The notes under the pieces are model-generated. The model was not told where the DNA came from and did no database searches. It saw nothing but the letters and a program-made list of their open reading frames with translations. The position numbers and the translations under genes were made by a program. From a virus, in the IMG/VR virus record IMGVR_UViG_3300044613_001624, positions 1-23,686 of that record: DNA of 23,686 bases; one strand, 5' to 3'. This document shows positions 2,732 to 23,686 of this stretch, piece after piece. The stretch's first letter is position 1, and every line of letters starts with the position of its first letter.

Positions 2732-3535
2732 CTAATCTGTACAGAATCCTGCTTGACATCCGCTACCTGTACCGAAGAAGAAATCCTGCTGCAAACCTAT
2801 TTTTTTGATCTGCTCATAGGACATCTCCTTCTTCCAAGTTCCTTTTTTCTCTTGATTTGCGAACCATTGCATCTTATTGGTTTCGGTATCCCAATTCTTC
2901 CTAAGTTGCTGCACAGGTTTCCAAAAGCAGCCTACACAATTGCTGTCCCCAGGAAATATGATTCCGCTTTTTTGCGCCCATTGGTAAATAGGGTAGTGTG
3001 TTATTTTATCTTCAATCAAAGGAAAGTACCCTTCTCTCCATTCGATTTCTTCCCACCTATTTTTCGTTCCTCTCTTTCCTACTATACCCTTGAATGAAGT
3101 GCTGAATCTTTCTGCTCTTTCCTTTTCATCATATCTAAATCCTACCCCCATCTTCACCTTCTCATTTACATTCTTAAACCACCAATCAAAAATAGGTCTT
3201 AATTTCATTTCAGAAGTACAGAATCTCCATTGCTGATTTGGAATCACAGAAGCCTTCTTATTTACTTGCTCAAAGGTTTTCCCTCCTACCCAAATGATCT
3301 CCCTTCCTAGTAACTGCTCAAGGTCTCTCATGGCATACAAAGTCAAATCACTTTCTGCTGTGGCTATGAAATCCTTTCCTAACTTTTCAGATACATATTT
3401 GACTATGCTTTCATCCTTTGGTTTGCAGTTAGGATCTTCAATCTGAACTAATGCAAAAATATTGAAATCAGCAGGGTAGTGAACTGCTAGGTAAGAAGAT
3501 GTTTTTCCTCCGCTTAAACTATTAATTGTTTTCAT
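2732..3535 (-). CDS. PAPS reductase-like PP-loop enzyme
   Basis: 267 residues of the adenine nucleotide alpha-hydrolase (PP-loop) fold. The ATP-binding loop is SLSGGKTSS at residues 6-14, very near the N-terminus. WRFCTSEMKLRP (103-114) corresponds to the C-TxxxK region of the phosphoadenosine phosphosulfate reductase family. Cys200/Cys203 (NCVGC) and Cys260/Cys265 at the very end could hold a metal or an iron-sulfur cluster. Phage members of this family are not thought to make sulfite for growth. Sulfur transfer to nucleic acid (DndC-like) or nucleotide chemistry is more plausible but unproven. It lies two bases downstream of the RusA-like gene in a block with a DNA methyltransferase, so a role in DNA modification is a reasonable inference. 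Confidence 0.82.
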   Translation of the reverse strand: MKTINSLSGGKTSSYLAVHYPADFNIFALVQIEDPNCKPKDESIVKYVSEKLGKDFIATAESDLTLYAMRDLEQLLGREIIWVGGKTFEQVNKKASVIPNQQWRFCTSEMKLRPIFDWWFKNVNEKVKMGVGFRYDEKERAERFSTSFKGIVGKRGTKNRWEEIEWREGYFPLIEDKITHYPIYQWAQKSGIIFPGDSNCVGCFWKPVQQLRKNWDTETNKMQWFANQEKKGTWKKEMSYEQIKKIGLQQDFFFGTGSGCQAGFCTD

Positions 3536-3879: not shown

Positions 3880-4052
3880 TTGCAAGCCTTATAGACAAAG
3901 TCCATTCCTATGGTAACTGCCATGACAATAAACATGAACCAAATTCCACAGTCAAAGTCAAAGTGAATCAAAGCAAAGCTAGTAAGTAGGGTAGTTTGGA
4001 TGCTAAATAGATCCTGCTTTTTAGGTGTTAGGTTTTCAATTAATTTTTTCAT
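3876..4052 (-). CDS. Small two-helix membrane protein
   Basis: A 58-residue gene. Its ATG at 4052 overlaps the stop of the methyltransferase gene (ATGA), and its stop overlaps the ATG of the RusA-like gene the same way, so both ends are locked by coupling. It starts MKKLIENLTPKKQDLF, a basic amphipathic N-terminus. Two hydrophobic segments follow, about residues 17-32 and 36-50, separated by an acidic turn (HFDFDCG), and the C-terminus is YKACK. This is a typical small phage inner-membrane protein of unknown role. Confidence 0.7.
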   Translation of the reverse strand: MKKLIENLTPKKQDLFSIQTTLLTSFALIHFDFDCGIWFMFIVMAVTIGMDFVYKACK

Positions 4053-4966
4053 ATTGTTAGCTGTTTATCTAGTTCGTTATATTGTTGAATGGCTTTGAAT
4101 ATCTGATAGACTACTTGAGGTACTACTGCATTCCCTCCTGCTTTGATTGATTCTTGTCTCCATTTAGAAAAGGTAATTCCGTCCAATCTGTCGGAAAGCC
4201 CATCATCTCCATCACAAATTGGGGGGACAGTTGGGAACATTTGGAAGTTTGTTCTGTAAAATTTATTGCATCTTTCAGACTGTTTGTCATCGGATTGTGG
4301 GATTGTCTTGGAGCATTTCCCCTTCTTCCGTGTTTGTAATCCGATGCTACAGGTGTTGGAATTAATCCCATCGCTAATGCCCTTGTCAATGTGACTGAAT
4401 GCATTGATCCTTCCTTCACCTGTGATGACTTCATCGTGTTGGATGCGTTTGTCGAATCGAAGCAAGTTGGAGTAGGAAGCATTGTAGGCAATGAACCATA
4501 TTCTATCCCTTCTGTGGGGAGCGTTAACACTTGCAGCTGGAAGTAAAAACGGTGTGACTTCGTAGCCTTCAACTTCCAAATCAGATTGCACTTCATCGAA
4601 AACCAACCCTCCGTTCCAATTAGTAAGCCCGCGAACATTTTCGCCCACGATCCAAGTCGGCTGAATCTCTCGAATTGCTCTAAGCATCTCTGGCCAGAGG
4701 TGTCTCTCATCCTCCTTGCCAAGGCGCTTTCCTGCTGATGAATATGGTTGACAGGGGAATCCACCTGTAATGATGTCAATTCTTCCTCTGTGAATAGTGA
4801 AATCTGTCTTTGTAATGTCATGATAAGTGATTGCATTAGGCCAATAATAATTTAGTACTTTTTGTCCAAAGGGATTCCATTCACAATGAAAAACATTTTC
4901 CCACCCCATCCATTCTGATGCTAAGTCAAAGCCTCCTATTCCGCTAAATAATGATCCATGTCTCAT
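4049..4966 (-). CDS. DNA (cytosine-5) methyltransferase
   Basis: 305 residues with the conserved C5-MTase motifs in order: motif I FSGIGGFDLA (7-16, AdoMet binding), motif IV GGFPCQPYS (68-76) with catalytic Cys72, motif VI ENVRG (109-113), motif VIII APHRRDRIW (149-157), and motif X GNAVVPQVVYQIFKA (278-292). The segment from about 160 to 260 is the variable target-recognition region; it is Ser/Lys-rich and short. Motif IX is not obvious in this frame. The enzyme probably methylates phage DNA to evade host restriction; the target site cannot be read from sequence. The gene directly follows the helicase stop without a gap. Nearly four fifths of it is also open in a second frame that encodes a protein with its own family-like features. 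Confidence 0.9.
   Translation of the reverse strand: MRHGSLFSGIGGFDLASEWMGWENVFHCEWNPFGQKVLNYYWPNAITYHDITKTDFTIHRGRIDIITGGFPCQPYSSAGKRLGKEDERHLWPEMLRAIREIQPTWIVGENVRGLTNWNGGLVFDEVQSDLEVEGYEVTPFLLPAASVNAPHRRDRIWFIAYNASYSNLLRFDKRIQHDEVITGEGRINAFSHIDKGISDGINSNTCSIGLQTRKKGKCSKTIPQSDDKQSERCNKFYRTNFQMFPTVPPICDGDDGLSDRLDGITFSKWRQESIKAGGNAVVPQVVYQIFKAIQQYNELDKQLTI
4123..4836 (-). CDS. Overprinted gene nested in the methyltransferase
   Basis: 237 codons lie wholly inside the methyltransferase gene, read in the +1 frame relative to it, with ATG at 4836 (Met6 at 4821 is an alternative). The product does not look like random out-of-frame sequence. It has GSWAKMFAGLL and WFSMKCNLIWKLKATKSHRF, then FQLQVLTLPTEG, two LPTPT-type repeats (MLPTPTCFDS and LIPTPVASDYKHG), and a C-terminus LSPQFVMEMMGFPTDWTELPF. 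From memory, this chain (W..M.C.LTWK.K.T....F.L, LLPTPT.SD.KG, LNP.FVE.MMGFP.GWT) recurs in phage proteins often annotated as methyltransferase-associated or hypothetical. The last part resembles MTase motif IX. It may assist or complement the enzyme, for example in target recognition. Function is unproven. Confidence 0.7.
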   Translation of the reverse strand: MQSLIMTLQRQISLFTEEELTSLQVDSPVNHIHQQESALARRMRDTSGQRCLEQFERFSRLGSWAKMFAGLLIGTEGWFSMKCNLIWKLKATKSHRFYFQLQVLTLPTEGIEYGSLPTMLPTPTCFDSTNASNTMKSSQVKEGSMHSVTLTRALAMGLIPTPVASDYKHGRRGNAPRQSHNPMTNSLKDAINFTEQTSKCSQLSPQFVMEMMGFPTDWTELPFLNGDKNQSKQEGMQ

Positions 4967-23068: not shown

Positions 23069-23207
23069 ATTCTGTTTCTTCCTTCGGGTTCTGCTCCTGA
23101 ACCTGTTGGGCTAGGAATTGGATGAAGGACATCCCGTACTTGGTAGGCAGTTCTTGTGCCCATGCTTCTAGCATTTTGATTTGGTCTTCTGTTAGTGTGA
23201 TTTTCAT
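23067..23207 (-). CDS. Small acidic protein
   Basis: A 46-residue gene. Its ATG at 23207 overlaps the stop of the S74 tail-fibre gene (ATGA). The product is MKITLTEDQIKMLEAWAQEL, then SFIQFLAQQVQEQNPKEETE: two amphipathic helices, glutamine- and glutamate-rich. It lies immediately before the tape-measure gene, where tail assembly chaperones are often found; the small size leaves that open. Confidence 0.65.
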   Translation of the reverse strand: MKITLTEDQIKMLEAWAQELPTKYGMSFIQFLAQQVQEQNPKEETE

Positions 23208-23686
23208 TTCATTTGGTTTTTAAGTGAATCGATTTGTATTTGCTGTTCTTGAATTGCCTTGATAAGTACGGGTACTATTTTATCATAATCTAATCCCCAA
23301 AGTTCAGTATCATTTCCAACACCTACCGATTCAGGAATTAAATCATAAACCTCTTGTGCGATTAATCCAATAGTTGGCTTATATGTTTCCTTCAATACTA
23401 TTTCACCATCAATCACTTCTGAATCGTGTTGATTATATGAAACAGGATTCAATTGCATTAATTCTTTTAATCCATAAGTCAAAGAATTTACATCTTCTTT
23501 AATTCTTTGGTCTGAATAGGTGTTCCAAGCATAACATTTTGCAGCAGCTACAGAAGTATTTGGTCCTTGAAAACGAGTATTTGCATCTAATGTAGTTTGA
23601 TTTGCAAAACCTCCACCATAGTACATTACCCCTAAACCTGATGCACCTGAATCCGCTGAACCTAAATATATCAACCCCCCCGAAGT
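23204..23686 (-). CDS. Tail fibre with S74 chaperone domain, 5' part outside the window
   Basis: At least 160 residues; the frame remains open to the window edge, so the N-terminal fibre part is missing. The visible start shows a Gly/Ser/Ala-rich beta stretch, as in fibre shafts. Then comes the intramolecular chaperone (Peptidase_S74) domain: SDQRIKEDVNSLTYGLKELM with the Ser-Asp-x-Arg-x-Lys catalytic site, LMQLNPVSYNQ, KPTIGLIAQEVYDLIPESV and LDYDKIVPVLIKAIQEQQIQ, ending in a short coiled coil. In known members the domain trimerises the fibre and then cuts itself off at the Ser, whose hydroxyl attacks the bond before it with the help of the Lys. It is the host-recognition fibre or spike of the virion. 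Confidence 0.88.
   Translation of the reverse strand, partial: TSGGLIYLGSADSGASGLGVMYYGGGFANQTTLDANTRFQGPNTSVAAAKCYAWNTYSDQRIKEDVNSLTYGLKELMQLNPVSYNQHDSEVIDGEIVLKETYKPTIGLIAQEVYDLIPESVGVGNDTELWGLDYDKIVPVLIKAIQEQQIQIDSLKNQMK

Follow-up and report, generated by a model that had tools for sequence, protein, structure and literature searches.

The window analyzed here, 23,686 bases long, makes up an entire viral-contig record, although we cannot exclude that it is a fragment of a phage genome. Its minus strand encodes a cytosine-5 DNA methyltransferase (MTase), called alpha here, whose gene (4049-4966) fully encloses a second open frame of 237 codons (4123-4836) in +1 relative to alpha, just as the original prediction had described. 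The features quoted for that frame, namely WKLKATK, two PTP blocks and LSPQFVMEMMGFPTDWTELPF, are all found in its translation, and we call its product beta (Table 1). Phage-type neighbors of the pair include genes for a RusA-type resolvase, Gp157, ERF and an amidase. The frame at 2732-3535 looks PAPS-reductase-like by eye, with an SGGKTS start and no Pfam match. Similar genes lie near alpha/beta in locus L006, where one is annotated, and in L378, where one was recognized by eye, and the PF01507 and DndC models match two neighbors each elsewhere; a PAPS-reductase-like gene is possibly a recurrent neighbor of the pair. Two phage frames, 6016-6408 and 6326-6976, adjoin with an 83-base overlap, the second being a DUF6291 protein, and the C-terminal DQRIKEDVNSLTYGLKELMQL encoded at 23204-23686 looks, by eye, like the self-cleaving chaperone domain of phage tail spikes.

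Table 1. Features of the alpha/beta locus, in window positions
Feature	Positions	Strand	Remarks
Alpha, cytosine-5 MTase, predicted catalytic subunit	4049-4966	minus	305 codons/aa; PF00145, E 4e-45; phrog_363, E 1e-71
Alpha motif I	4928-4957	minus	
Alpha motif IV (PC)	4739-4765	minus	
Alpha motif VI (ENV)	4634-4645	minus	
Alpha motif VIII	4484-4522	minus	
Alpha motif X (GGNAVVPQ)	4109-4138	minus	
Beta, proposed overprinted subunit, frame +1	4123-4821	minus	probably 232 aa, from the conserved ATG; phrog_1008, E 9e-22
Catalytic overlap, both frames constrained	4484-4821	minus	alpha motifs IV-VIII; N-terminal half of beta with ARRMRDTSG and WKLKATKSHRFYFQL
Beta cassette 1, family A, MLPTPTCFDSTNASNTMKSSQVKEGSMHSVTLTRALAMG	4366-4482	minus	59 members in 110 betas; relatives in other phyla
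Beta cassette 2, family D, LIPTPVASDYKHGRRGNAPRQSHNPMTNSLKDAINFTEQTSKC	4237-4365	minus	24 members in 110 betas
Beta motif IX-like block, SQLSPQFVMEMMGFPTDWTEL	4174-4236	minus	same DNA in the alpha frame reads CDGDDGLSDRLDGITF
Alpha residues 175-254, predicted disordered linker (putative passenger reading of the cassettes)	4205-4444	minus	pLDDT < 50; frame 0 dN/dS 1.05

The catalytic motifs of C5 MTases, I, IV (PC), VI (ENV), VIII and X, are all present in alpha. Across 61 alphas, E109, N110, V111, R153, R155, G278 and N279 are invariant, and P71 and C72 are nearly so. We recognized no motif IX in the 305-residue chain of the window, and an in-frame target-recognition domain and motif IX are absent between motifs VIII and X, with no consensus there in the 61 alphas. 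Over about 170 columns, an AlphaFold2 model of alpha matches the large domain of the MTases HaeIII and HhaI; it is confident except mainly at residues 175-254, which are predicted without secondary structure.

The second frame is not an accident of the MTase sequence. Shuffling synonymous codons of the window MTase while preserving alpha never reached the observed +1 run (0 of 2,000), and the same shuffles across 113 loci, drawn from scans with either protein and five annotated phage records, recreated it in just 2 of 11,300. The nested run is open in all 113 distinct homologous genes, over 184-355 codons, with only 20-80 codons open in +2; stops in the +1 frame in close relatives, which would have refuted dual coding, were seen in none. 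We conclude that chance is excluded and that a genuine second gene is overprinted on the MTase in +1, as first proposed. Wider searches gave 160 further loci from scans with a beta alignment, 25 from a family search in Pseudomonadota and 48 from Enterobacteriaceae, E. coli and K1G-type sequences. Each of these 233 classified loci has the beta frame in +1 overlap with an alpha-type MTase, and none contains a stand-alone beta or a beta fused in frame to the MTase. The original prediction had described this chain as familiar from phages, in separate genes or as misnamed methyltransferases; the former does not survive the count, and 'DNA methyltransferase' is a label found on the matching family, phrog_1008. 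It had also offered a lack of +1 homologues outside MTase loci as grounds for refutation. Such a lack is what we observe, but an obligate subunit predicts the absence of stand-alone betas, and we read the nesting in that way.

Hosts of alpha/beta belong to the Bacteroidota, Bacillota, Pseudomonadota, Acidobacteriota, Chloroflexota and others, and named carriers include Paenibacillus larvae phages, Lc-Nu, K1G, SEN4, Fayden, Ssp-JY39 and mycobacteriophages. About 6-7% of sampled genomes contain the pair (24/398 for Pseudomonadota, 28/392 for Enterobacteriaceae), and over their length most betas from other phyla share only 27-39% identity with that of the window. Some records already annotate the nested gene, as 'g50 internal gene' (Redbud) or 'Mte8-like protein' (K1G), and annotation frequently leaves it out or misnames it. 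In two prophages (L374, L375) and a phage (L333), alpha/beta stands directly before a 'replication endonuclease' or 'replication protein' gene and near a DNA adenine methylase, which suggests that a position beside a replication gene is recurrent. Families listed among the neighboring frames include replication genes, further MTases and the type IV model mREase_IV, which two members match; no type II endonuclease was among the matches listed (25 most frequent families per library; 74 neighbor frames from genome loci).

Three loci deserve separate mention. On a Megaera plasmid (L410; AP017967.1, 1183-2208), LNPDWVEWLMGYP lies in the alpha frame, the PTP cassettes are still in +1 and the N-terminal half of beta is full of stops; this copy probably decayed following an indel. 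Mycobacterium phage Ochi17 (L328, 1558-2317) has a broken alpha, annotated as two 'DNA methylase' genes, with the beta motif intact in another frame. On the Nostoc plasmid pC052_A (L409, 1156-2139), a distant MTase contains a 247-codon +1 run with a PTP block and LNPHLVEAMIGVPQGWTD, and this pair is likely a divergent member of the family.

The beta frame offers two candidate starts. Its first ATG (4836) is often missing in relatives, while the second (4821), 5 codons ahead of a QISLF motif, is conserved, so the product is probably 232 residues long. An ATG lies five codons upstream of a QISLF-type motif in 85 of the 113 genes and within nine codons in 104. A 4-nucleotide ribosome-binding sequence precedes a beta-frame start in 28 of 31 loci from Bacillota and Actinomycetota, and several internal sites in Bacillota are near perfect (for example, AAAGGAGGATTTTTATG). 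Counted per start codon, however, the beta frame has no clear excess of such sites over the neighboring frame, and we therefore take them as supporting evidence only.

Substitution patterns separate the roles of the two frames. Between the closest pairs, 81% of the changes in the N-terminal part of alpha that lies outside the overlap fall at codon position 3. Over the catalytic overlap the third-position rate is about halved and its share drops to 0.67-0.56, the reduced synonymous variation expected of the MTase frame under dual coding. Across alpha residues 166-248 the closest pairs have 64% of their changes at position 1, which is position 3 of beta, and just 15% at position 3. We estimated dN/dS by overlap-aware counting on 38 disjoint pairs, without a full evolutionary model. 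Alpha and +1 values are 0.05 and 1.45 outside the overlap, 0.13 and 0.37 in the catalytic overlap, 1.05 (0.91-1.21) and 0.32 (0.24-0.41) in the recognition region, and 0.59 and 0.23 in the motif block; the control frame +2 ranges from 0.97 to 2.1. In other lineages (52 disjoint pairs) the recognition region gives 0.82 for alpha and 0.49 for +1, unchanged in direction with a weaker contrast. The catalytic overlap there gives 0.18 and 0.57, a weaker +1 signal when set beside the 0.75 of the control, presumed to lie outside the overlap; the +2 frame of these pairs gives 1.2-1.4.

We conclude that both frames are under purifying selection in the catalytic half, and that where target recognition is presumed to be encoded, the MTase frame drifts neutrally while the second frame is conserved. 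The expectation that both frames would be constrained holds, with the constraint over the recognition region falling on beta. That part of the main frame is not the target-recognition region of the enzyme that it had been taken for: the predicted disordered stretch of alpha coincides with its neutrally evolving part. Because frame 0 is neutral and predicted to be disordered there, the second frame probably carries target recognition in full. We infer that beta probably houses it, together with motif IX, in keeping with the suggestion that the second protein supplies target recognition; the specificity itself is inferred.

Toward its end beta carries a block, LxPxxVxxxMGFPxxWT, that resembles motif IX (LTPRECxRxMGF), and its L, P, V, MG, P, W and T are nearly invariant in 91 betas. 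The original prediction had noted an ending of this kind that is not obvious in the main frame, and the resemblance of the block holds. It is a motif-level likeness only, as a profile comparison of beta with canonical MTases, made without the atypical Megaera sequence, is weak (P 0.04). A first profile match (P 9e-6) was dropped since the set contained the Megaera copy, whose alpha frame has taken over the beta motif. Window beta matches phrog_1008 at E 1e-21 to 9e-22, 91 of 91 betas match the same family, and we found no meaningful match to beta in Pfam, NCBIfam, PADLOC or PDB sequences. Modeled alone, beta is predicted poorly (pLDDT 64, pTM 0.32), and a fold search from this weak model returned chance matches only and no fold. 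Such a poor prediction may be what is expected of an obligate subunit.

Between its N-terminal half and the motif IX-like block, beta is built of units that open with a PTP-like motif, mostly 30-50 residues long (~40) and usually 1-5 per protein. In 110 betas we counted 298 units, which fall into 74 families (39 of them singletons) and make up 74 distinct arrays; the window protein carries families A and D. One apparent cluster, 'J' (LPTEGIEYGSLPTM), proved to be a splitting artefact. The same cassette family occurs at different positions and with different neighbors. Even where the catalytic DNA of two loci is 95-98% identical and their C-termini ~95%, the stretch between can be almost entirely different. 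Outside the array, loci L086 and L121 hardly differ. Cassette sharing correlates only slightly (r = 0.17) with how similar the backbones are. Of the pairs below 85% catalytic identity, about half to two thirds have no common cassette, some pairs at 70-74% have one that is more than 92% identical, and certain cassettes reappear in betas of other phyla at 65-70% identity. Judged from these sequence comparisons, phages appear to shuffle the cassettes almost independently of the enzyme backbone.

We consider it very likely that the locus encodes a two-subunit phage C5 DNA methyltransferase, one DNA read in two frames, with beta as a specificity subunit made of cassettes; complex formation, methylation, the recognition role, the role of motif IX and the purpose are all inferred. 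Frame 0 would yield alpha, a catalytic large domain (motifs I-VIII and X) in which a disordered linker replaces the target-recognition domain and motif IX. From an internal start, frame +1 would yield beta, whose N-terminal half, encoded over the alpha catalytic region, is probably the docking part, followed by the array of ~40-residue PTP cassettes as putative target-recognition modules and then by the motif IX-like block. Beta would dock on alpha, complete the small domain and determine the sequence or sequences to be methylated. Cassettes could be swapped or added without harm to alpha because alpha would read their DNA only as linker, provided that both frames stay open. The likely benefit would be to shield phage DNA from varied host restriction enzymes. 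With less assurance, though as more likely than not, we propose that frame 0 is a catalytic subunit with a throw-away linker, that frame +1 is a specificity subunit with a mobile array of ~40-residue cassettes, and that phages widely reprogram or multiply their methylation targets by exchanging cassettes.

Could the +1 frame nevertheless be a mere by-product, arising passively from the codon usage and the conserved motifs of the MTase? The MMGFP of its conserved block is indeed the +1 reading of GDDGxxDRxD in alpha. A by-product would not withstand the shuffles, would not reverse the codon-position signal or be under purifying selection where frame 0 is neutral, and should show stops in many close relatives, of which the 113 genes have none; we regard this explanation as practically ruled out. 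Programmed ribosomal frameshifting, by which motifs I-VIII of alpha would continue into the recognition region and motif IX read in +1, as a single fused chain without a separate beta, has in its favor that the +1 recognition region starts right after motif VIII and is conserved in +1. A frameshift has no need of the +1 constraint that extends upstream over the catalytic region, nor of the conserved internal ATG, and the fusion would lose motif X, so that we hold it to be highly improbable.

Beta might instead be an independent protein, overprinted but with a different function such as anti-restriction or host interaction, that merely shares DNA with the MTase. Phages frequently overprint accessory genes, and beta has no assignable fold or activity. 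Yet beta never occurs without the MTase in 233 loci, alpha has no folded recognition region of its own, beta has a motif IX-like block at its end, and M.EcoHK31I is a precedent for an enzyme of two polypeptides; we give an independent protein little credence. Somewhat less easily dismissed, and still unlikely, is that beta is a subunit whose cassettes are fast-evolving interaction or linker modules, with specificity residing elsewhere, for instance in the beta N-terminal half. We have no cassette structure and no specificity data for any member, which leaves room for such an arrangement. Against it, cassettes of one family are conserved across phyla. Recognition domains of multispecific phage C5-MTases lie between motifs VIII and IX, measure ~40 residues, occur in tandem and are exchangeable, and the beta cassettes fit them in position (between the motif VIII equivalent and motif IX), size, tandem number and exchangeability.

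Long same-strand overlaps are thought to freeze evolution. In the two-subunit methyltransferase that we propose, variation is greatest within the overlap itself, since one frame governs one half of the DNA and the other frame the other half. If the proposal is true, it corrects the location of target recognition in this class of split MTases, it makes many proteins annotated as 'methyltransferase' the partner subunit instead, and it provides a large natural set of ~40-residue candidate recognition modules. We found no description of the overlap in phages in the literature searched, which covered few subscription papers.

An overprinted two-polypeptide MTase is a kind of enzyme known since M.EcoHK31I, and the frame is already catalogued as phrog_1008. 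M.EcoHK31I is an E. coli C5-MTase (YGGCCR) whose small polypeptide is reportedly encoded in an alternative frame inside the large gene. It has motifs I-VIII and X on the large polypeptide and motif IX on the small one (Lee, Kam and Shaw 1995, cited in PMC3404938), and the predicted recognition domain is assigned to the large subunit (PMC3404938). Alpha likewise has motifs I-VIII and X without IX, and the second polypeptide likewise sits in an alternative frame within the large gene. In contrast to that assignment, selection and predicted disorder appear to place the recognition region of alpha/beta in the small subunit; alpha/beta also differs in having cassette arrays and in that no partner restriction enzyme was recognized in the loci examined. 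M.EcoHK31I itself, accession X82231, was not found in E. coli and Enterobacteriaceae, where the matches examined are prophage copies. In M.AquI, a consecutively split C5-MTase, the recognition region and motif IX lie partly on the second chain, which also has motif X (PMC3404938). Alpha/beta would share the placement of the recognition region and motif IX on a second chain, but the beta gene is nested and motif X remains on alpha.

Phrog_1008 and the nested genes of Paenibacillus larvae phages and Escherichia phage K1G are of the same family as window beta, and those genes likewise lie in an MTase; the entries, where not labelled as methyltransferase, are called hypothetical, and none records the role of a cassette-bearing specificity subunit. 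The C5-MTases of Bacillus phages SPR, phi3T and SPbeta contain several exchangeable recognition modules of ~40 residues, gathered in a single variable region that motifs VIII and IX flank. Alpha/beta has tandem exchangeable modules between the equivalents of the same motifs, in a separate overprinted +1 subunit rather than in the catalytic chain, and a shuffled array of putative recognition cassettes in a second frame is apparently, on a provisional view, an undescribed variation. Type I systems pair a catalytic MTase, HsdM, with a separate modular specificity subunit, HsdS, for adenine methylation and without overprinting. Alpha/beta, as proposed, resembles them in keeping a modular specificity subunit apart from the catalytic MTase, and differs in that its subunits are overprinted, unrelated to theirs in sequence and directed at cytosine instead of adenine.
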